Shown here piece by piece: positions 16 to 27,341 of a DNA stretch of 28,268 bases. The notes under the pieces are model-generated. The model saw nothing but the letters and a program-made list of their open reading frames with translations. It searched no databases and was not told where the DNA came from. Each line of letters opens with the position of its first letter. The stretch's first letter is position 1. The stretch covers positions 1 to 28,268 of IMG/VR virus record IMGVR_UViG_3300025205_000001. One strand, given 5' to 3'. A program made the position numbers and the translations under genes. Source of the DNA: a virus.

Positions 16-654
16 ATGACCCACCACACCAACCCCGCCGTCATCTACATCAACGGCACCCCGCACATGAAGGACGCCAAGGGCCGCTTGCAGCCGCTCT
101 CGACCGTCAAAGCCCAGGACCAGCTGCAGGACGAGGTGGTCCGCAAGATCATCGGCTATGCCCAGGAGCTGAGCTGCCAGGTTGCCCGCTTCAAGACCCA
201 CACCTTCGAGGATCTGAGCGAGTTCGAGGGCCTTCTGGCTCAGGAATACGGCGAGACGCGCGGCGGCGCGAAAGGCAACAAGACCTTCATGAGCTTTGAC
301 GGATGCATGAAGGTGCAGGTCCAGGTGGCCGACCAGATCGACTTCGGCCCCGAGCTGCAGATCGCGAAAGACTTGATCGACGAGTGCCTGAATGAATGGG
401 CAGCGGATGCGGGCGACGAACTGCGCGCCGTCGTGACCCGCGCCTTCAACACCGACAAGGCGGGTCAGATCAACCGCGCCGAGATCTTCATGCTGCTGCG
501 CCTGGAGATCGCGGACCCGCGTTGGAAGAAGGCGATGGAGGCGATCAAGGACGCCATGCGCGTCGTCGGGTCCAAGACCTACGTCCGCTGCTACCAGCGC
601 GACCACGGCGAGGCCCCCTGGGAGGCCATCACCATCGATCTGGCACGGGCGTGA
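16..654 (+). CDS. DUF3164 family protein (Mu-like early region)
   Basis: The 212-residue product matches the DUF3164 family, a protein of unknown biochemical role encoded in the early region of many Mu-like phages, usually a little downstream of the transposition genes A and B. The start is supported by a purine-rich AGAGGAA about 8 bases upstream. The N-terminus has an INGTPHMKDAKGRLQP stretch typical of the family. The centre is rich in charged helices, and a conserved-looking IEMLLRL/DPRWKKAMEAI-type region lies near residues 155-180 (seen here as IFMLLRLEIADPRWKKAMEA). No membrane segment or signal peptide is visible. It converges with the reverse-strand gene that ends at 661, leaving only 6 bases between stop codons. 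Family assignment is from recognised sequence character; function is unknown. Confidence 0.85.
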   Translation: MTHHTNPAVIYINGTPHMKDAKGRLQPLSTVKAQDQLQDEVVRKIIGYAQELSCQVARFKTHTFEDLSEFEGLLAQEYGETRGGAKGNKTFMSFDGCMKVQVQVADQIDFGPELQIAKDLIDECLNEWAADAGDELRAVVTRAFNTDKAGQINRAEIFMLLRLEIADPRWKKAMEAIKDAMRVVGSKTYVRCYQRDHGEAPWEAITIDLARA

Positions 655-1415: not shown

Positions 1416-2093
1416 ATGACGGACACCGTCACCCCCATCCCCTTTCGCGGGGACATCATCGACTATCTGAACGCGGGCGGTGCCCGGATCGAATGGCTCT
1501 GGCGCGACCGTCAGGCCTTCATCCCGGTGCGCCCGGTCTGCGACCGGCTGGGGCTGGCCTACCAGCCGCAGCACCGGAAATTGACGGCCCCGGAAACGGA
1601 GGCAACCGTCACCATGAAGGTGACGGTTGGGGCCGACGGGAAGCAGCGCGAAATGCTGCATCTGGCCTACGAGGACTTCCTGATGTGGCTGGGCAATATC
1701 ACGCCCAGCCGGGTCAAGCCCGAGGCGCGCGACGCCTTGCGCCGGACCCGGATAGAAATCCGCGAGGTACTGGCAACGCACTACCGCGAGCGGTTGTTCG
1801 GAGAAGTCGCGGCGGTCCAGATGACCATATCGACCTTCGAGGCCGAGTGGACGTCGATGCGGTCCTGGCACCCGGCGGTGCTGATGGGCTGCCGGTCGGG
1901 CCTGACCTTCCAGCAGATCCGCGCGGCGGCCAAGCCGTCGATCCCGGCATGGCGCATCGCGGACAGCATCCGCGCGGCCTTTCGGCTGGGGCTGATCGAC
2001 TGGACCCCGGCGGACCTGCCCGCACCGCGTGTCGCCAAGGAACCGGAGCCGAAGGACGATCCGCGCCAGACCTCGCTGTTCGGGGAGGGCTGA
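1416..2093 (+). CDS. Phage antirepressor, P22_AR_N-like N-terminal domain
   Basis: A 225-residue protein whose first ~125 residues resemble the P22 antirepressor N-terminal domain: FRGDIIDYLN, then FIPVRPVCDRLGLAYQPQHRKL, then a strand-rich segment ending LHLAYEDFLMWLGNI. Antirepressors of this class bind or displace phage repressors and promote lytic growth. The C-terminal half (about residues 130-200) is helical and contains an HTH-like segment, GLTFQQIRAAAKPSIPAWRI. The start is supported by AAGGAGAA upstream. The extreme C-terminus carries QTSLF (bases 2067-2081), resembling a sliding-clamp-binding peptide. It opens a run of closely packed genes leading to gemA and the activator. The family call is good; the repressor target is not in the window. 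Confidence 0.8.
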   Translation: MTDTVTPIPFRGDIIDYLNAGGARIEWLWRDRQAFIPVRPVCDRLGLAYQPQHRKLTAPETEATVTMKVTVGADGKQREMLHLAYEDFLMWLGNITPSRVKPEARDALRRTRIEIREVLATHYRERLFGEVAAVQMTISTFEAEWTSMRSWHPAVLMGCRSGLTFQQIRAAAKPSIPAWRIADSIRAAFRLGLIDWTPADLPAPRVAKEPEPKDDPRQTSLFGEG

Positions 2094-2724: not shown

Positions 2725-3171
2725 ATGACCGCCAATATGATCCGCTCCATCCACGTCGGTTGCCGCCAGCTCGGGATCGACGCAGACACCCGGCACGATC
2801 TGCAGTTGCGCCTGGTGGGCAAGACCAGCCTCTCGGATATGTCCGACGATGAGCGGCAGCGTGTCCTGGACGAGTTGAAGGCGCGCGGGTTCCGGCCCTC
2901 TTCCGGCAAGCGCGCCAAGGCGCCCCGCGCGGACCTGCGCCTGGTCCACGTCCTCTGGGCCAAGTTGGGCCATGCGGGCGAGTTGAAGGACCCGACACGG
3001 CAGGGGCTGAACAAGTTCATCCAGAAACGCTTCGGCGAGGCCTGGGGCTTTGTCCCCGCCGACGTCGACGGGCTGCGCGATCACGACAAGATCGACGCGG
3101 TGCTGCAGGCGTTGATCCAATGGGGCAAGCGGGCGGAGATTGATTTCGACTGGTCGAGGATCGGCAAATGA
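2725..3171 (+). CDS. gemA: GemA-family regulatory protein (Mu gp16-like, DUF1018)
   Basis: A 148-residue protein of the GemA/Gp16 (DUF1018) family. The signature runs from the N-terminus: IRSIHVGCRQLGIDADT (residues 6-22), then a TGK-like VGKTSLSDMSDDERQRVLDE segment (31-50), then LKARGF. The C-terminal half contains LWAKLGHAGELKDPTRQGLNKFI, typical of the family. In Mu, GemA modulates host gene expression and DNA supercoiling and lies upstream of the activator gene mor; here the activator gene follows after one small ORF, reproducing the order. The ribosome-binding site is inside a strong stem-loop (2696-2723), suggesting conditional translation. An alternative ATG at 2737 would shorten the protein by four residues. 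The stop overlaps the next start (ATGA), implying translational coupling. Confidence 0.85.
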   Translation: MTANMIRSIHVGCRQLGIDADTRHDLQLRLVGKTSLSDMSDDERQRVLDELKARGFRPSSGKRAKAPRADLRLVHVLWAKLGHAGELKDPTRQGLNKFIQKRFGEAWGFVPADVDGLRDHDKIDAVLQALIQWGKRAEIDFDWSRIGK

Positions 3172-3431
3172 AAAAGCCGCGCCACAGGGTCACCGATCAT
3201 GCCGTCCTGCGCTACCTGGAGCGGGCGCAGGGCATCGACATCGAGGCCGTCCGGCGTGAGCTGGGCGCACGGATCGACGCCGCCTGCGAAGGTTTCGAGG
3301 GCATGTGCGCGGTGAACATCGAGGGCATCTCGTTCCGCCTGAGCCAGAGCGGCAATGTCACCACTTGTTTCGAGCAGAACCGCCCCGACCGCGGCCACAG
3401 TGGCCCGCCCCGGAAACGCGACATCGAATGA
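3168..3431 (+). CDS. Small basic hypothetical protein between gemA and activator gene
   Basis: An 87-residue protein starting at the ATG that overlaps the gemA stop by four bases, and itself overlapping the activator gene by four bases at its end (ATGA junctions on both sides). It opens with KKPRHRVTDHAVLRYLERAQ, a pattern I associate with small uncharacterised phage and prophage proteins of alphaproteobacteria, followed by a helical segment and a strand-rich part (CAVNIEGISFRLSQSGNVTT). The C-terminal tail is basic and Pro/Arg-rich. Composition would allow nucleic-acid binding, but there is no identifiable motif. The coupling to gemA and to the activator suggests a role in the middle-stage programme. 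Confidence 0.75.
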   Translation: MKKPRHRVTDHAVLRYLERAQGIDIEAVRRELGARIDAACEGFEGMCAVNIEGISFRLSQSGNVTTCFEQNRPDRGHSGPPRKRDIE

Positions 3432-3811
3432 CCGAGCCGGTGGCATATCCACGCCACCCGGCGCACCTGGACCCCTATATCGAGGTCCTGGGGCCGCGCA
3501 TGGCGGTCAGCTTCCTGGTCATGTTCGGCGGCTCGCCTCTCTGGTTCCCGGACGATCCCCGTGGCCGCAGTGCGGCCGAGCAGTTGATCGGCGCCGACAA
3601 GATGCGGGCGCTCGGCGCGCGCATGCGGTCGAACCTGACCGAGATCCCGATGCCCAAGAACTGGCTGATCCGCGCGCTGCACGCGGAGGGCCTGTCGGTC
3701 GGGCAGATCTGCCGCGCCCTCAAAACCAGCAGCACCAACGTCAAGCGGACCCTGCGCGAGGCCGGTGGCGACAAGCCCTCTGCCGATCCCGATCAGCTGT
3801 CTCTGTTCTGA
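3428..3811 (+). CDS. Mor/C-family late transcription activator
   Basis: A 127-residue protein with the architecture of Mu Mor and C: an N-terminal dimerisation part (YIEVLGPRMAVSFLVMFGG, residues 17-35, then a Pro-rich turn WFPDDPRG) and a C-terminal helix-turn-helix (NWLIRALHAEGLSVGQICRA into SSTNVKRTLREAG, about residues 78-113). In Mu these proteins bind next to weak promoters and recruit RNA polymerase. Here there is one such gene, ending one base before a 17-bp motif that is repeated in front of the head protease gene, the expected target. The start at 3428 overlaps the previous gene by four bases. The extreme C-terminus is DQLSLF, a canonical beta-sliding-clamp-binding peptide not expected in Mor itself. 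It could correspond to either Mor or C; its position just before the lysis gene fits C. Confidence 0.8.
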   Translation: MTEPVAYPRHPAHLDPYIEVLGPRMAVSFLVMFGGSPLWFPDDPRGRSAAEQLIGADKMRALGARMRSNLTEIPMPKNWLIRALHAEGLSVGQICRALKTSSTNVKRTLREAGGDKPSADPDQLSLF

Positions 3812-3854: not shown

Positions 3855-3869
3855 CCCCGTTCAACGGGG
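3855..3869 (+). promoter_or_regulatory. Hairpin covering the lysis-gene ribosome-binding site
   Basis: CCCCGTT (3855-3861) is complementary to AACGGGG (3863-3869), realistically a 5-bp stem CCCCG/CGGGG with a TTCAA loop. The 3' arm holds the G-run that serves as the Shine-Dalgarno sequence for the muramidase start at 3877. A transcript starting at the proposed late start (~3859) would lack the left arm and leave the site open, whereas read-through RNA from upstream would fold it shut. Structure is visible; timing control is inferred. Confidence 0.45.
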
Positions 3870-3876
3870 GTATCAG

Positions 3877-4503
3877 ATGTCCACGAAACATGACGTGCGC
3901 CGGATGGCCGAGGAGATCGTCGCCCGCGAGGGCGCGTTCGTGAACGATCCTGACGATCCCGGCGGCGCGACCAAGTACGGCGTCACCATCCACACGCTGC
4001 GCAACATCCCCTGGGGCGACCTGGACGGTGACGGCGACATCGATGTGATGGACGTGCGTGCCCTGTCGCAGGACCATGCCATCCTGATTTTCGAGGAGCG
4101 CTATTTCTTCGGGCCGCGCATCGACGAGCTGCCCGAGGCGCTGCAGGCCACCGTCTTCGACATGTACGTCAATGCGGGCGCCAACGCGGTGAAGCTCCTC
4201 CAGCGGCTGCTGTGCGAGATGGCGCCGCCCGAGATCGCCGTCGATGGCGTGATCGGCCCGCAGACCATCGCTGCCGCGAACCGTGCTTGGGAGCGGGCCG
4301 GTGATCGCCTGGTCGATGCCTACGGGATCGAGCGGCGCAACTTCTACTTCCGCATCGCCGACCGGCGCCCGGCCTCGCGCAAATACGCCCGCACTCGCGC
4401 GGGCGGCAAGGGTGGCTGGATCAAGCGCGCCGAGGAGTTCATTTCGCCCGAGTACCACATGACCGATGCGCAATTTCAGGCGCGGGTGGCGGCATGGGGC
4501 TGA
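3877..4503 (+). CDS. Holin-associated N-acetylmuramidase (GH108 endolysin)
   Basis: A 208-residue endolysin that hydrolyses peptidoglycan between MurNAc and GlcNAc. The N-terminal glycoside hydrolase 108 domain contains the EEIVAREGAFVNDPDDPGG motif with predicted catalytic Glu18, then TKYGVT (32-37). The second half has the putative peptidoglycan-binding region with VNAGANAVKLLQRLL and DGVIGPQTIAA (123-133). No signal peptide is present, so release through the adjacent 3TM holin is expected. Residues 48-59 (DLDGDGDIDVMD) form a canonical EF-hand/dockerin-type calcium loop inside the catalytic domain. The gene follows the putative late promoter and is the first gene of the late region, as lys is in Mu. 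Its end overlaps the holin gene by 10 bases. Confidence 0.92.
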   Translation: MSTKHDVRRMAEEIVAREGAFVNDPDDPGGATKYGVTIHTLRNIPWGDLDGDGDIDVMDVRALSQDHAILIFEERYFFGPRIDELPEALQATVFDMYVNAGANAVKLLQRLLCEMAPPEIAVDGVIGPQTIAAANRAWERAGDRLVDAYGIERRNFYFRIADRRPASRKYARTRAGGKGGWIKRAEEFISPEYHMTDAQFQARVAAWG

Positions 4504-7805: not shown

Positions 7806-9430
7806 CCCAGCCTGTCCTCTCCCGCAATCCCGAGGAGCTTCCCGCCGATCTGCCGCGCGGCGGCGACATCCCTGCGGATCTCGACCCGCTCGCCGAGGGC
7901 ATCCTCATGGAGCACCAGAAGACCTGGCTGGAGGATACCTCCGACCTCAAGGTCTGCGAGAAAGGGCGCCGGACGGGCATTACCTTTGCCGAGATGCTGG
8001 GTTGCACCCTGATCGCCGCCGCGTCCCGTTCCGCTGGCGGACAGAACTGCTTCTACATCGGTGACACCAAGGACAAGGGCCGCGAGGCTATCGGCTATGT
8101 TGCCCACTTCGCCAAGGTGGTGGCCGGCGAGCTGGGGCAGGTCGAGGAGTTCCTCTTCGAGGATCAGCAGCCCGACGGCACGACCAAGCAGATCGCCGCC
8201 TACCGCGTGCGCTTCGCCTCCGGTTTCCGGGTCGAGGCGCTGTCGTCGAACCCGGCGAACATTCGCGGCCTTCAGGGCACCGTGGTGATCGATGAGGCGG
8301 CGTTCCACCGGGACGTGCGCGAGGTCATCGACGCCGTGAACGCCCTGCTGATCTGGGGCGGAAAGGTGCGGGTGATTTCGACCCACAACGGCCACCTGAA
8401 CCCGTTCAACGAGCTGATCCGCGAGGCGCGGGCGGGCAAGAACGGCTTCAAGGTTCACACCTACACCTTCGCGGACGCGGTGTTGAACGGCCTCTTCAAG
8501 CGGGTCTGCCTGATGAAGGGCGACGCGTGGAGCCAAGAGGCGCAGGACGCCTGGGAGGCGCAGATCCGAGGCTCCTACGGCGCGCGCGACGCGGCCATGA
8601 AGCAGGAGCTGGACGCCGTTCCCAGCGAGATGGCCGGCGCCGCGCTGACCCGCGTGCAGATCGAGGCCTGCCTTGTCGAAGGCGCGCCCTTCGAACGCTG
8701 GCACCAGCCGGACGCCTTCAAGAACGCACCGGAGGAACAGCGCAAGGCCGAGACGCTGGCCTGGTGCGAGGAACACCTGAAACCGGTTCTCGACAGCCTG
8801 GACCCCAAGCGCCGCCACAACCTGGGCGAGGACTTTGCCCGGTCCGGCGACGCCACCGACATCGTGATCATGGAAGAGGGCGAGGACCTGCGCCAGCGCT
8901 GCAAGCTGATCGTCGAGATGCGCAACATCCCCTTCGGCCAGCAAAAGCAGGTCTTCTTCTACATCGCCGACCGGCTGCCCCGCTTCATGAAGGGGGCCGT
9001 CGACGCGACCGGCAACGGTGCCTACCTCGCCGAGGAGGCGGCCATGCGCTACGGCAGCCGGATCGAGGAGGTCAGCTTCAGCCGCGAATGGTACGCCTCC
9101 GAGATGCCCTCGTACATCGAGGCCTTCACCGACCGCACCATCGAGCTGCCCAGGCATGCCGACGTGCTGGCGGATCACCAGGCGCTGCAGTTCGTGGATG
9201 GGATCATCCGCGTGCCGCGCGACTTCCGCTTCAAGGGATCGGACGGGCTGGATCGTCACGGCGACAGCGCCGTGGCCGGGGCGCTCGCCTGGTACGCCAG
9301 CCGACAGACCGGCACTGAGATCGCCTACCAGCCGGTGACAGAACGCCAGGACGGTCCCGACGACAGGGACACCGAACGGCCCTGGTGGCGCCAGCCGCTG
9401 GGCGCGCGCCTGCGCGGTGGCGTGTTTTGA
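7802..9430 (+). CDS. Large terminase subunit (Mu gp28-like TerL)
   Basis: A 542-residue packaging motor. The start at 7802 overlaps the upstream stop (ATGA) and gives a normal family length. The ATPase domain shows a Walker A-like CEKGRRTGIT (residues 52-61), Walker B VVIDEA (161-166) and a coupling motif ISTHNG (192-197). The RNase H-like nuclease domain shows acidic positions in LGEDFARSGDATD (D344), VDATGNG (D401) and RHGDSAVAGALAW (D488). It pumps phage DNA into proheads and, in Mu-like phages, cuts host-flanked DNA by a headful mechanism. It should work with the DUF3486 protein and the DUF935 portal. The C-terminus ends with a basic tail RARLRGG-like segment that may contact the portal. 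Confidence 0.92.
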   Translation: MTQPVLSRNPEELPADLPRGGDIPADLDPLAEGILMEHQKTWLEDTSDLKVCEKGRRTGITFAEMLGCTLIAAASRSAGGQNCFYIGDTKDKGREAIGYVAHFAKVVAGELGQVEEFLFEDQQPDGTTKQIAAYRVRFASGFRVEALSSNPANIRGLQGTVVIDEAAFHRDVREVIDAVNALLIWGGKVRVISTHNGHLNPFNELIREARAGKNGFKVHTYTFADAVLNGLFKRVCLMKGDAWSQEAQDAWEAQIRGSYGARDAAMKQELDAVPSEMAGAALTRVQIEACLVEGAPFERWHQPDAFKNAPEEQRKAETLAWCEEHLKPVLDSLDPKRRHNLGEDFARSGDATDIVIMEEGEDLRQRCKLIVEMRNIPFGQQKQVFFYIADRLPRFMKGAVDATGNGAYLAEEAAMRYGSRIEEVSFSREWYASEMPSYIEAFTDRTIELPRHADVLADHQALQFVDGIIRVPRDFRFKGSDGLDRHGDSAVAGALAWYASRQTGTEIAYQPVTERQDGPDDRDTERPWWRQPLGARLRGGVF

Positions 9431-9460
9431 TGCCCGCGCTGACATCAGGCCCGAAGGGGC

Positions 9461-9483
9461 CGGGAGCAGTACCAGTGCTCCCG
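9461..9483. other. Inverted repeat between terminase and methylase genes
   Basis: CGGGAGCA (9461-9468) pairs perfectly with TGCTCCCG (9476-9483) around a 7-base loop. It lies 30 bases past the terminase stop in the 152-base gap before the methylase start. There is no following T-run, so it is at most a weak attenuator or RNA-processing site. Apart from this hairpin I see nothing definite in 9431-9582; the methylase frame is open through it. Confidence 0.4.
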
Positions 9484-9582
9484 ACACGGGGAGCCGGCTA
9501 TGCCACCCCGCCGACCGCCTTACTCATCCGGCCGCCCGATGCAGACCCTGCACGACAAGCGGCAAAGATGAGGTTAACCGAC

Positions 9583-10410
9583 ATGAGCGATCCAAAACTG
9601 CGCCAGGCGCGACCCATCGCCCCCTACCTGGGGGGCAAGCGCAACCTGGCGAAACGGATCTGCGCGATCATCGACGCCACCCCGCACACCACCTATGCCG
9701 AGCCATTCGTCGGCATGGGCGGGATCTTCCTACGCCGTCGGCGGGCTGTGCGGGCGGAGTTCATCAACGACTTCAGCTGCGAGGTCTACACGCTCTTCCG
9801 CGTCCTCCAGGAACACTACGTCGCCTTCCTGGACCTTCTGCGGTTCCAGATCACGACCCAGGCAGGGTTTGAACGGCTGATCGCCGTCGATCCGGACACC
9901 CTGACCGACATGCAGCGCGCTGCGCGGTTCCTCTTCCTGCAGCGCTGCGCTTTCGGCGGCAAGGTCAGCGGGCGGAATTTCGGCCTTTCAACCGACCGTC
10001 CCGCCCGGTTCAACCTGACCACGCTGGAGCCGGACCTCGAAGCCCTGCACGAGCGCCTCACCGGGGTCACGGTGACCTGCCTGGACTTCACCGAGTTCAT
10101 CAGGCGGATCGACCGCGAAGGGACGCTCTTCTACCTCGATCCGCCCTACTGGGGCAGCGAAGGCGACTATGGCAAACACGCCTTCACACGCGAACGCTTT
10201 GGCGACCTGGCCAATCAGCTCCGCAACGCAAAGGGGCGGTTTCTCCTGTCGATCAACGACGTGCCCGAGGTGCGCGAGATCTTCGACTGGGCCGAGCTGA
10301 CGTCAGTCCGGACAACCTATTCCGTCGCCAAGGGCGTAGCCCAGACCGGCCGGGGCGAGCTCTTGATCTCGAATTTCCTGCTCTCGGCCGACCCACCCGC
10401 AAAGGAGTGA
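9583..10410 (+). CDS. DNA adenine methylase (D12 class, Dam-like)
   Basis: A 275-residue N6-adenine DNA methyltransferase of the D12/Dam class. The AdoMet-binding PYLGGKRNLAKRI (residues 14-26) and AEPFVGMGGIF (39-49), and the catalytic DPPYW (186-190), are in the order expected for this alpha-type enzyme; a target-recognition region rich in RCAFGGKVSGRNFG lies between. It transfers a methyl group from S-adenosylmethionine to adenine in a short target; the target cannot be read from the sequence, GATC being only the commonest for the class. ATG 9583 is chosen because GAGG lies upstream; the frame is open back to an ATG at 9430 overlapping the terminase stop. Its insertion between terminase and portal suggests protection of packaged DNA. 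Confidence 0.88.
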   Translation: MSDPKLRQARPIAPYLGGKRNLAKRICAIIDATPHTTYAEPFVGMGGIFLRRRRAVRAEFINDFSCEVYTLFRVLQEHYVAFLDLLRFQITTQAGFERLIAVDPDTLTDMQRAARFLFLQRCAFGGKVSGRNFGLSTDRPARFNLTTLEPDLEALHERLTGVTVTCLDFTEFIRRIDREGTLFYLDPPYWGSEGDYGKHAFTRERFGDLANQLRNAKGRFLLSINDVPEVREIFDWAELTSVRTTYSVAKGVAQTGRGELLISNFLLSADPPAKE

Positions 10411-23643: not shown

Positions 23644-26600
23644 GCTGCTGGTCGGTCGAATACCTCGGGATCCCGCAGCAGGACCACGGGCGCAGCCGCG
23701 CGGGCGCGGACTGCTGGGGGCTGGTGCGCCTGGTTTATTGGGGCGAGCTGGGGATCGACCTGCCCAGCTACACCGACGTCTGCCCGGACCTGGCGGAACG
23801 GGCGGAACTGGGCGCGTTGATCACGGGCGAGCGGGACAAGGGACCGTGGCGCGCGGTCGAGGAGATCGCGCCTTTCGACGTCTTGCTGTTCCGGGTGGGG
23901 GCGCATGCCACCCATGTCGCCGTGGCCGTGGATGCCCGCGACATGCTGCACATCCACGGCCACAGCGAGAGCTGTACCGTCCCGATCCGGGATCCGATGT
24001 GGCGCAAGCGGCTGATGGGGGTCTACCGCTATGCCCGGCCCGCGCCGGTCCATGTGATCGCCGCGCGGGGCATGTTGCCTGACCAACTGCGCCAGAGCTT
24101 TGATCTGGCGCCCACACTGACCATCGCTCAGATCGTCGACCGGGTGTTCCCCGGTGCGCCGGACAGCGTGCTGAGCCGGGTCCGGGTGACGATGGCGCAT
24201 GGACGTGACTGGCGCCCGGTCCCGCGCGCTTGGTGGTGCCGCATCACGCCGCACGCCGGCACCCATGTCGCCCTGCGCGTGGTGCCGGGCGTGGGCGCCC
24301 TAGCCATCAAGGCTGCGGTTTTCCTTTCCGGTCTGGGGTTGGCCACGCCGGTGGTCAACATCCTCGCATTCGGGGGAGCCCTGGCCGTCACGGCGCTGGG
24401 GGCGGCGGCGCTGAACTCGCTGATCCAGTTGCCGCAGTCGCCGGATGGTCCAGGGGGTCCCGAGACCGATTACGCGGTTGAGGGATTGCGCAACCAGGCC
24501 ATCCACGGCGAGCCCGTTCCCATGCCGATGGGTCGTATCCGGGTCGCACCCGTCTTTGCCATGCAACCCTACCAGCAGATCGTCGGCGACGATCAGTATA
24601 TCCGGGCGCTGTTCCTCTTCGGCTATGGCCGTCTTGATATCTCTGACATCCGCATAGGCGATACGCCGATCACCGAGTTCAGCGACATCGAGTACGAGTT
24701 GCGCGAGGGGGCGCTCGACGATGATCCGGTGACCATCACGTCGATCCAGGCGATCGAGCAACCCGAGCAGATCGAGCTGATCCACGACTACGGTCTTGAC
24801 GACGACGGCAACCCGGACAAGGCGGGTGGGCTGATCGAGACGCCGGTGATCCGGAGGCTGGCATCGGACGCGGTGCGCGGCGGGATCGTGCTGAACTTCC
24901 CCGGCGGTCTCTACCGCTTCGACGTGAACTCGGAGGAGAACAAGCGCCACACCGTGACGTTCCGGCTCGACCAGCGCGAGGTCGGGTCAGTGAGCTGGAC
25001 TGAGGTCGCCGAGCTGGAATACTCCGCCGCCAGCGCCAAGCCATTCCGCCGGCAATACACTTGGGCGCTGCCCTCGCGCGGGGACTGGGAGATCCGCCTG
25101 ACACGGACCTCCTCCAGCGAGGATCATTCGAGGATCTCCCGCACGGTCTACCTGACCGCGGTGCAGGGCTACCGGCCGGAATACCCGATCGACCTTGAGC
25201 GCATGAGCGCGCCGCTTGCGATGATATCGGTGAAAATGCGCGCCACGTATCAGCTCTCCGGCACGCTCGACCAGCTCAACGCGCTGGTGCAGCGCTACGC
25301 GCTCGACTGGGATGGCGAGACCTGGACCGAGGCGCTGACCCGGAACCCGGCCTCGGCCTATCTCTTGGCGCTGCAGGGGCCGGACAATCCCGAGCCGGTC
25401 GCCGACGCGGAGATCGACTGGGAAGCGCTGGCGGACTGGCACGAATTCTGCACCGCGAAGGGCCTGCACTATGACCGCGATCAGCGGCGCTGGGAAAGCC
25501 TGCTGGACCGCCTGACCGTCATCGCCGCCGCCGGCCGGGCCAGCCCCTGGCACGATGGCGCGGCCTGGTCGGTGATCATCGACCGGCAACCGCCCCGCGA
25601 GCGAACCCATATCGCGCCGCGCAACAGCCGCAACTTCCAGGGGCAGCGCAGCTTCCTGCGCACGCCCGATGCGGTAAGGGTCCACTTCAAGGACGAGGAC
25701 AACGACTATCTCGACGGCGAGGTCGTGGTGCCCTGGCCAGGCAAGAGCGCGCCCTATGACCTGGTCGAGGAGTGGCAGAAACCGGGCAAGACCAACGCCA
25801 CCGAGATCGCCCGCGAGATCTACCGCGACATGCTGGTGGTCGAGCATCGGCGCGACCGCTGGACGGTCGAACGATCGGGGGCGGCACGCGTGGAGACGCG
25901 CGGCGATCATGTCTGGCTGACACACCCGGTCCTGGACAGCACGCAGGCCTCGGCATGGGTGCTGTCCGCCCAGGACGCGCTGATCATCCTCGACGAGATG
26001 GTGACAATGGAGGCCGGGCAGAGCTACGCGATCCGCTTCATCGGCTTCGACGAGGAAGATCCGGTGGGGCAGTCTGTGCTGAGCGCGGTGCAGACGGTGC
26101 CGGGGCAGACCAGGACGCTGCATGTCACCGGGGCCGATGTTCCGGCCGAGGGGGCAATGATCCTCTTCGGTCCGGTCTCGGACGTCTCCGAGCGGGCGCT
26201 GGTGCTGGACATCGAGCCGGGTGAGGATTTCTCGGCCACGGTCACGCTGACCAATGCCGCGCCAGAGATCGAAGAACTGACCGATGCCTATGTGCCCGAG
26301 ACCTGGTCCCCCATCGTCGGGCAGATCGTGGACGTCGGCATCGACCCGCTGGCGCCGGTCTTCGCCGGGATCGAAACCACGGCGGCCGAGGGGGTCTACG
26401 GCAGCGACGCGCGGAGCTTGCAGGTCACCCTGGCCACCGCCCCCGACGACCGGGCGCTGATCGCCTCCTTCGAGCTGGACCACCGGCTGCAGGGAGCAGG
26501 GTCCTGGACCACGGTGGCGACGGCGCTCTCGGCCGAGCTGAGCTATGACCAGGACGACGTGGTCGAGCTGCGTGCGCGTGCGCTCGACTTCGATGGCGAC

Positions 26601-27341
26601 TGGGGTGACTACACCGCCACCGCGACCGTCACCGTGGGCGCTGATCTCGGGGCCTTGCCCGCCGAAATCGATCTTGATGCTGCCAGTGTCAGCGCAGGCC
26701 TCGGCGTGGCCCTGATCACCGTGGCGGTGGGCGATCCGAACACCGCGAGCGTGCAGATCTTCCGCACGGCGGTCGGCGACAGTTTCGACCCGGTTGCGGA
26801 TGTCCTCGGTGCGCCGGAGACCGAGACGGACGAGGATTTCCTCGGCCAACCAGTGCCCTCCGGCCAGCCCGTCACCTTCACCGATGGCGACAGCACCCGT
26901 GCCGATCTGCTGGCGGCGACCTGGACGAACGGCGGCGGCTGGGGCAGCGCAACGCTTCCCTCGGCGCACACGCCGGGCGCGGCATCCACCCTGTCACAGT
27001 CCCTGAGCCTCACAGTAGGAGAGACCTACCGGGGTCAGGTCACGATTTCCGGCCGGACGGCCGGGTCGGTCACCGTGCAGCTGGCGGGCGGGACCGCCGT
27101 GCCCACGAGCGCGATCAGTGCCGATGGCCAGGCGCTCTTCAGCCTCGACGCGGTGACTGGAAATGACAGGATCGAGGTTGTGTCGACCTCCGATTTCGAC
27201 GGCACGGTCGAGAGCCTGACCCTGATCCGCGAGACCGCCGCAAGTGCCCCTCAAGGGGCGTTTGAATACCGATTTGCAGCCCTCAACAGCGACGGGATCG
27301 GCTCGGCCGTGTCCGCCGCCACCACAGTCACAATCATCTGA
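23640..27341 (+). CDS. NlpC/P60 peptidase fused to TipJ-like host-specificity tail-tip protein
   Basis: A 1233-residue fusion. Residues 1-133 are a C40 NlpC/P60 endopeptidase: RAGADCWGLVRLVYWG with Cys25, and AHATHVAVAVD with His92, then HIHGHSES. This is the lambda K-type tail peptidase that cuts host peptidoglycan during entry. Residues ~137-216 (HVIAARGMLPDQLRQSFDLA, LTIAQIVDRVFPG) match the start of TipJ-type proteins, followed by two hydrophobic segments (~219-262) and the J-like hub (~270-870, e.g. EPVPMPMGRIRVAPVF, FLFGYGRLDISDIRIGDTPI). A fibronectin III-like domain (~900-1000) and a beta-sandwich carbohydrate-binding-like domain (~1090-1200, NDRIEVVSTSDFDGTVESL) end the protein and are the likely receptor-binding part. 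The frame is open throughout with uniform codon bias, so it is not an assembly artefact within this sequence. Confidence 0.88.
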   Translation: MSCWSVEYLGIPQQDHGRSRAGADCWGLVRLVYWGELGIDLPSYTDVCPDLAERAELGALITGERDKGPWRAVEEIAPFDVLLFRVGAHATHVAVAVDARDMLHIHGHSESCTVPIRDPMWRKRLMGVYRYARPAPVHVIAARGMLPDQLRQSFDLAPTLTIAQIVDRVFPGAPDSVLSRVRVTMAHGRDWRPVPRAWWCRITPHAGTHVALRVVPGVGALAIKAAVFLSGLGLATPVVNILAFGGALAVTALGAAALNSLIQLPQSPDGPGGPETDYAVEGLRNQAIHGEPVPMPMGRIRVAPVFAMQPYQQIVGDDQYIRALFLFGYGRLDISDIRIGDTPITEFSDIEYELREGALDDDPVTITSIQAIEQPEQIELIHDYGLDDDGNPDKAGGLIETPVIRRLASDAVRGGIVLNFPGGLYRFDVNSEENKRHTVTFRLDQREVGSVSWTEVAELEYSAASAKPFRRQYTWALPSRGDWEIRLTRTSSSEDHSRISRTVYLTAVQGYRPEYPIDLERMSAPLAMISVKMRATYQLSGTLDQLNALVQRYALDWDGETWTEALTRNPASAYLLALQGPDNPEPVADAEIDWEALADWHEFCTAKGLHYDRDQRRWESLLDRLTVIAAAGRASPWHDGAAWSVIIDRQPPRERTHIAPRNSRNFQGQRSFLRTPDAVRVHFKDEDNDYLDGEVVVPWPGKSAPYDLVEEWQKPGKTNATEIAREIYRDMLVVEHRRDRWTVERSGAARVETRGDHVWLTHPVLDSTQASAWVLSAQDALIILDEMVTMEAGQSYAIRFIGFDEEDPVGQSVLSAVQTVPGQTRTLHVTGADVPAEGAMILFGPVSDVSERALVLDIEPGEDFSATVTLTNAAPEIEELTDAYVPETWSPIVGQIVDVGIDPLAPVFAGIETTAAEGVYGSDARSLQVTLATAPDDRALIASFELDHRLQGAGSWTTVATALSAELSYDQDDVVELRARALDFDGDWGDYTATATVTVGADLGALPAEIDLDAASVSAGLGVALITVAVGDPNTASVQIFRTAVGDSFDPVADVLGAPETETDEDFLGQPVPSGQPVTFTDGDSTRADLLAATWTNGGGWGSATLPSAHTPGAASTLSQSLSLTVGETYRGQVTISGRTAGSVTVQLAGGTAVPTSAISADGQALFSLDAVTGNDRIEVVSTSDFDGTVESLTLIRETAASAPQGAFEYRFAALNSDGIGSAVSAATTVTII

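Follow-up and report, generated by a model that had tools for sequence, protein, structure and literature searches.

The predicted late transcription activator of a Mu-like phage ends in QLSLF, a pentapeptide identical to the bacterial consensus for binding the beta sliding clamp, and comparable tails are carried by many related Mor/C-type activators, including both of those of Mu. The gene lies in the window, by which we mean the whole 28,268-base stretch of DNA analysed here, the virus record of this phage. Such a tail therefore characterises the Mor/C-type family and not the window phage alone, a point that was overlooked in an earlier sequence-only reading of the same DNA. Judged from its sequence, the tail is likely to bind DnaN, the host clamp. 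On balance, we lean towards a fuller account in which the activator docks on DnaN through this tail and favours middle and late transcription on phage DNA that has been replicated. Because the tail is common to many related activators, Mu's among them, Mu-like viruses may link the expression of their late genes to replication of their DNA.

The genes of this region run in the order DUF3164, antirepressor-like, GemA, small ORF, activator and endolysin (Table 1). This arrangement contains the GemA-activator-endolysin order of the wider Mor/C superfamily, with the activator in the slot that is occupied by Mor and C in Mu and by the single activator in RcapMu. Mameliella sp. CS4 carries an activator that is 98% identical to that of the window, and the nearest relatives are found in Mameliella and other Rhodobacterales. 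A perfect inverted repeat (CCCCGTT-C-AACGGGG, 3855-3869) is located just before the endolysin start and is kept in eight of nine aligned close sequences; it may serve as an operator or form a hairpin at the ribosome site, close to where the late promoter is expected. Further downstream, an ORF at 9385-10410 between terminase-like and portal-like ORFs reads, by eye, like a DNA adenine methyltransferase.

Table 1. Positions in the window of the activator gene, its parts and its neighbours.
Feature	Coordinates	Strand	Basis or remark
Predicted late transcription activator gene, phrog_836 branch of Mor/C	3428..3811	+	127 aa, ATG start, TGA stop (3809-3811)
Predicted helix-turn-helix (HTH) DNA-binding part, residues 77-111	3656..3760	+	AF2 helices 77-86, 91-98, 102-111; generic HTH Pfam matches at 81-112
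Variable linker, residues 113-119	3764..3784	+	codon comparison, nine close sequences; low pLDDT
Conserved C-terminal tail DPDQLSLF, residues 120-127	3785..3808	+	codon comparison
QLSLF, consensus beta-clamp-binding pentapeptide	3794..3808	+	consensus from the accessible parts of PMC12309361 and PMC9690074
GemA-like gene, two genes upstream of activator, Mu-type context	2725..3171	+	PF06252 E 5.8e-19
Endolysin (glycosyl hydrolase 108), first gene past activator	3877..4503	+	PF05838, PF09374
P22_AR_N antirepressor-like protein, tail DDPRQTSLFGEG	1416..2093	+	PF10547 E 7.9e-23
Small ORF between GemA-like gene and activator	3168-3431		
DUF3164 gene, upstream of activator	16-654		

The description of the protein as Mor/C-like in the sequence-only reading is correct in kind, whereas a direct assignment to the Pfam Mor family fails. 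The protein matches the phrog_836 profile, annotated as 'late transcriptional activator', over nearly its full length (E 7.6e-17, residues 7-127 on positions 9-132 of 133). It is filed under phrog_836 because Pfam Mor PF08765 gives no match to it at E<=1. RcapMu27, likewise a phrog_836 member, does match PF08765 (1.1e-9), and the phrog_836 profile also matches Mu Mor (1.2e-10) and Mu C (2.1e-11). Furthermore, a profile-profile comparison (hhalign) of 36 relatives with 12 gamma Mor/C proteins gives a probability of 95.8 (E 7.8e-9) in an alignment spanning both the HTH and the tail. These relationships point to a predicted role as a Mor/C-type activator of the phage late genes for lysis, head and tail.

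Structurally, the AF2 model of the window protein (pLDDT 83.6) consists of an N-terminal helical domain with two short strands followed by the C-terminal HTH. Residues 112-127 have no secondary structure in the model and a block pLDDT of about 56-59, so that the tail is predicted to be disordered, which agrees with the earlier suggestion that the motif sits at an exposed C terminus. A fold search with this model reached a best Foldseek E of 0.31 and a best VIA Z of 4.7, with nothing at E<=0.001 and without 1rr7 among the matches listed; a model of Mu C does retrieve 1rr7, 9l0x and 9l0y. The lack of a clear fold match for the window model is not counted against homology.

The protein ends in SADPDQLSLF, as had been reported, with the last eight residues encoded 2 nt upstream of the place first given for them (3787-3810). 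Codon comparison among nine close sequences, window included, reveals a sharp difference between this tail and what precedes it. Expressed as pairwise sums, which are not independent, there are 95 synonymous and no non-synonymous differences in the tail codons (120-127), compared with 60 and 120 in the seven linker codons before the tail, and 872 and 543 in the rest of the activator. Because synonymous sites vary and non-synonymous sites do not, selection acts on the tail peptide and not on its DNA. This pattern, with the next gene starting only at 3877, also eliminates a DNA-level constraint on the last codons from an overlapping gene or promoter. Across 13 sequences with identity down to 30%, Q123 and L126 never vary and F127 hardly does, while the length and sequence of the preceding segment vary. 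The conservation among homologues that the sequence-only reading had called for is therefore present, as invariant Q and L positions, purifying selection on the tail and recurrence of the motif across Mor/C proteins, including those of Mu.

Among window ORFs of at least 60 amino acids on both strands, Q..[LM][FL] occurs within the last 14 residues of only two, the activator and the ORF at 1416-2090. The latter encodes the antirepressor-like protein, whose tail, DDPRQTSLFGEG, gives this early region a second clamp-like pentapeptide (QTSLF, 2067-2081). When relatives of this protein were sought in a single scan, one distant locus was recovered, where the match stops at query residue 125.

According to the accessible parts of two studies, bacterial clamp-binding peptides follow the consensus QL[S/D]LF or the looser QxxLF, in which positions 1, 4 and 5 are critical, and QLSLPL is a tight-binding variant (PMC12309361, PMC9690074). 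QLSLF itself is the motif of PolC, for which the available text describes measured DnaN binding (PMC12309361). The tail of the window protein thus has the canonical form claimed for it from sequence. The likely host clamp partner is ordinary: Mameliella DnaN contains TDGHRLA, FPDY and a C-terminal VVMPMR, and we take these blocks to be those that line the peptide-binding cleft in E. coli beta.

A survey of the wider family was used to establish how common such tails are. There were 133 matching ORFs, of which 129 closed ORFs passed the thresholds (E<=1e-6, profile span 80) and 115 were distinct. Thirty-seven further places, and another 40, were picked by hand from among those listed. The 115 comprise 48 with the pentapeptide, six with a hexapeptide, 14 that keep LF or LL and lack the Q, and 47 with none of these. 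Adding distinct closed matches from phage records, Mu C and RcapMu27, excluding open ORFs and keeping lengths of 70-190 amino acids gave 204 sequences, which reduced to 111 representatives at 50% identity. Q..[LM][FL] is found in the last 16 residues of 46 of these 111, against a shuffle mean of 1.1 and a maximum of 6 (2000 shuffles). When the penta- or hexapeptide is sought in the last 18 residues, the count is 55, against 2.1 expected and a maximum of 7 (1000 shuffles). Placement is similarly restricted, since in the wide set 48 occurrences have fewer than 15 residues after them and three lie elsewhere. QxxLF and QxxLxL-like forms are both found at this same C-terminal place, and among members from virus records either the penta- or the hexapeptide is present in 36 of 41.

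The remaining 56 representatives lack both peptides in their last 18 residues, and some of these adjoin GemA. Several motif-less relatives, again including some near GemA, retain only a terminal LF without the Q (for example PLPLF and EPDLF), and others end at the HTH. Activator-like members with GemA nearby carry the motif in 80 of 110 cases, compared with 22 of 92 for those without GemA, and it is absent from all 112 GemA-like proteins encoded at these loci. On a poorly resolved tree, the representatives need 27 label changes versus a shuffled mean of 36. The motif label is therefore clustered and the tail often lost or changed, with an order of gains and losses that is not readable from such a tree. 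Some short PF08765-like proteins form a subgroup that stops directly after the HTH, without a tail, and that may have a different role. In one genome of the family of G001, three activator-like stretches stand in tandem (G515:C55 12743-14288).

These data bear on the prospect that the tail arose by chance or was inherited without function. Close relatives do share the tail by descent, and the pairwise counts above are not independent. Nevertheless, the shuffle controls, the absence of non-synonymous changes amid many synonymous ones, and the recurrence of the motif at 30-40% identity leave this explanation scarcely credible, and chance origin was rejected on the shuffles and the codon counts.

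The same tail is evident in named phages. In five annotated phages with 273 CDS in total, the motif is present in the last 12 residues of all six Mor/C-type proteins and in one of the 267 others (Fisher 1.3e-11), where three of the six come from phages found via the window protein and Mu and RcapMu were chosen as reference phages. The six tails are QMRLF (RC1), QLSLF (ThpS-P1), QMDLF (StopSmel), QLPLF (RcapMu), QPSLL (Mu Mor) and QPDLF (Mu C). Additional phages provide QRDLF (Pmp9), QRRLF (HS6 and MuM16-1), QPDLF (MuM16-2), QGKLF (PhiKM), QPNLF (martha), QFDMF (AFS-2018a), QMPLL (Bise), QPELF (ZX4290), QGDLF (Komp_PAO1), QNDLF (EBPR4), QFDLF (RR1-B) and QYSLL (YPCBV-1). Seventeen phage records were fetched, representing 13 of 36 and 4 of 9 from two lists, and 13 of them have the motif. 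These 13 are among the 14 annotated records, where Arya is the one without it; the three unannotated records lack it in full form, two having EPDLF with no Q and one QYSLD. In a chosen subset of 12 Mor/C proteins, made up of 10 of the 17 fetched records plus Mu Mor and Mu C, the motif is present in all 12 and its Q falls in one of the eight alignment columns that are invariant. In ThpS-P1, the gene vBThpSP1_033 (26254-26643) matches phrog_836 (1.4e-19) and ends in QLSLF, which contrasts with the accessible text on phage vB_ThpS-P1, where a Mor activator is said to be lacking (PMC5488378).

Some gamma Mor/C proteins also carry Q..[LM][FL] near the N terminus (QHDLF in Mu C, QDDLF in Pmp9, QSELF in HS6 and QLDLL in MuM16-1). 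Within the first 32 amino acids it is found in 4 of 12 such proteins, a number reached by 8 of 5000 shuffles. The residues of the Mu C copy (9963-9980 of the Mu record) are modelled in 9l0x chain J, unlike the tail.

The hydrophobic final residues of the window protein and many relatives could also be understood as a C-terminal protease tag, or another signal that depends on the free carboxyl group, setting the half-life of the activator. Such a degron is disfavoured because several relatives extend past LF while keeping the Q and L (LFPA, LFEKN and, in Mu C, LFSPETPK), and we regard it as very improbable.

Mor and C of Mu are textbook activators with solved RNA polymerase complexes, and these structures are informative about what the tail touches. 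The window protein is a predicted activator whose HTH adjoins the tail, and RNA polymerase is no less universal than the clamp, so a contact with polymerase or sigma could be imagined in place of one with DnaN. However, Mu C in complex with polymerase (9l0x chain J) is modelled over residues 1-129, ending just before its motif at 130-134, and the remaining C chains, judged by length alone, comprise even fewer residues (124, 108 and 105). Likewise, Mor with polymerase (9l0y chain J) is modelled over 12-120 and the crystal structure 1rr7 over 27-120, with the motif at 125-129. The tail therefore appears unmodelled even when the activator sits on polymerase and promoter, as judged from chain lengths and the numbering of placeable chains rather than from maps; no paper on 9l0x, 9l0y or 9vw8 was found in the open-access literature searched. 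Moreover, the occurrence of QxxLF alongside QxxLxL is the pattern of a clamp motif. A polymerase or sigma contact is accordingly disfavoured, and we consider it improbable. The clamp-binding end of T4 gp55 is similarly unmodelled, as far as the accessible text goes (PMC7892883).

The preferred reading, clamp docking that favours transcription of replicated DNA, can be formulated as follows. The last five residues, a short linear motif within a tail predicted to be disordered, would enter the peptide-binding cleft of host DnaN. Mu-like phages replicate by transposition using the host replisome, and clamps would therefore be left on new phage copies. The HTH would bind the promoter while the tail holds such a clamp, and this tethering would enrich the activator on phage copies that have just been replicated. 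Middle and late transcription would thereby be favoured once replicative transposition has begun. In older work, transcription of the Mu late genes reportedly depended on replication; this was not used as evidence here. The accessible text of one paper says just that the Mu late genes are turned on once replication is under way (PMC4461284).

The clamp is unlikely to be strictly required, since the accessible accounts describe Mu C activating late promoters in vitro from linear templates when RNA polymerase is present and the clamp is not (PMC4461284), and Mor activating Pm with RNA polymerase alone (PMC4287176). The tail would thus be modulatory, affecting efficiency or timing, and not required. 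These experiments also leave room for the main rival, namely that the tail binds the host clamp for another purpose: to slow or redirect the host replisome, to keep the activator parked on the host chromosome as long as phage copies are few, or to inactivate the activator. All of the motif evidence fits any clamp-dependent role, and there is a precedent in Hda, described in the available text as a clamp-bound negative regulator that inactivates DnaA (PMC9690074). Yet the motif resides on the class of proteins that sets middle and late timing and is missing from their GemA-like neighbours, and T4 gp33 and gp55, in the accessible description, use a like anatomy to activate. We therefore judge a non-activating role to be fairly unlikely.

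Should clamp-assisted activation be correct, the window phage would possess a host-clamp-coupled transcription activator, and we know of no precedent for one of this kind. Clamp contact would also explain conserved Mor/C tail residues that have no role in the literature examined. Clamp binding by Mor, C or any Mu-like late activator is unreported in the titles and abstract openings listed by our open-access literature searches, and the portions of the Mor and C descriptions consulted mention no clamp contact. We advance only tentatively, as a doubtful extension, the proposal that clamp tethering is general and old in Mor/C activators, such that the host beta clamp, deposited during replicative transposition, serves as a mobile coactivator of middle and late promoters across transposable phages, Mu included, in a second, independent invention of a T4-style strategy that relies on a promoter-binding activator and the clamp of the host.

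Compared with Mor and C of Mu (PF08765, phrog_532), the window protein shares the position between GemA and lysis genes, the C-terminal HTH, the profile match and a clamp-like tail. It differs in its phrog_836 branch, in being missed by PF08765 and in having the exact consensus QLSLF as its tail. The window phage also has a single activator, whereas Mu has a Mor-then-C pair. A second parallel is provided by IS1634 and other transposases, for which the available text reports a C-terminal Q-L-x-L-F shown to bind beta (PMC4549789). These resemble the window activator as mobile-element proteins with a C-terminal clamp motif, but they are recombinases and not transcription activators.

The proposed coupling of late transcription to replication has a parallel in T4. 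No gp55 or gp33 PHROG is among the matches of the window protein at E<=1, and the likeness is one of anatomy. In the accessible descriptions, gp33 and gp55 couple late transcription in T4 to replication by gripping the DNA-loaded clamp through conserved C-terminal epitopes (PMC2988020), and the epitope of gp55 follows a linker that varies in both length and sequence (PMC2988020, PMC7892883). Both systems therefore share a conserved epitope at the far C terminus that follows a variable linker. T4 differs by employing a sigma-like factor, a coactivator and its own gp45 clamp, whereas the window phage would combine a promoter-binding activator with the clamp of its host.
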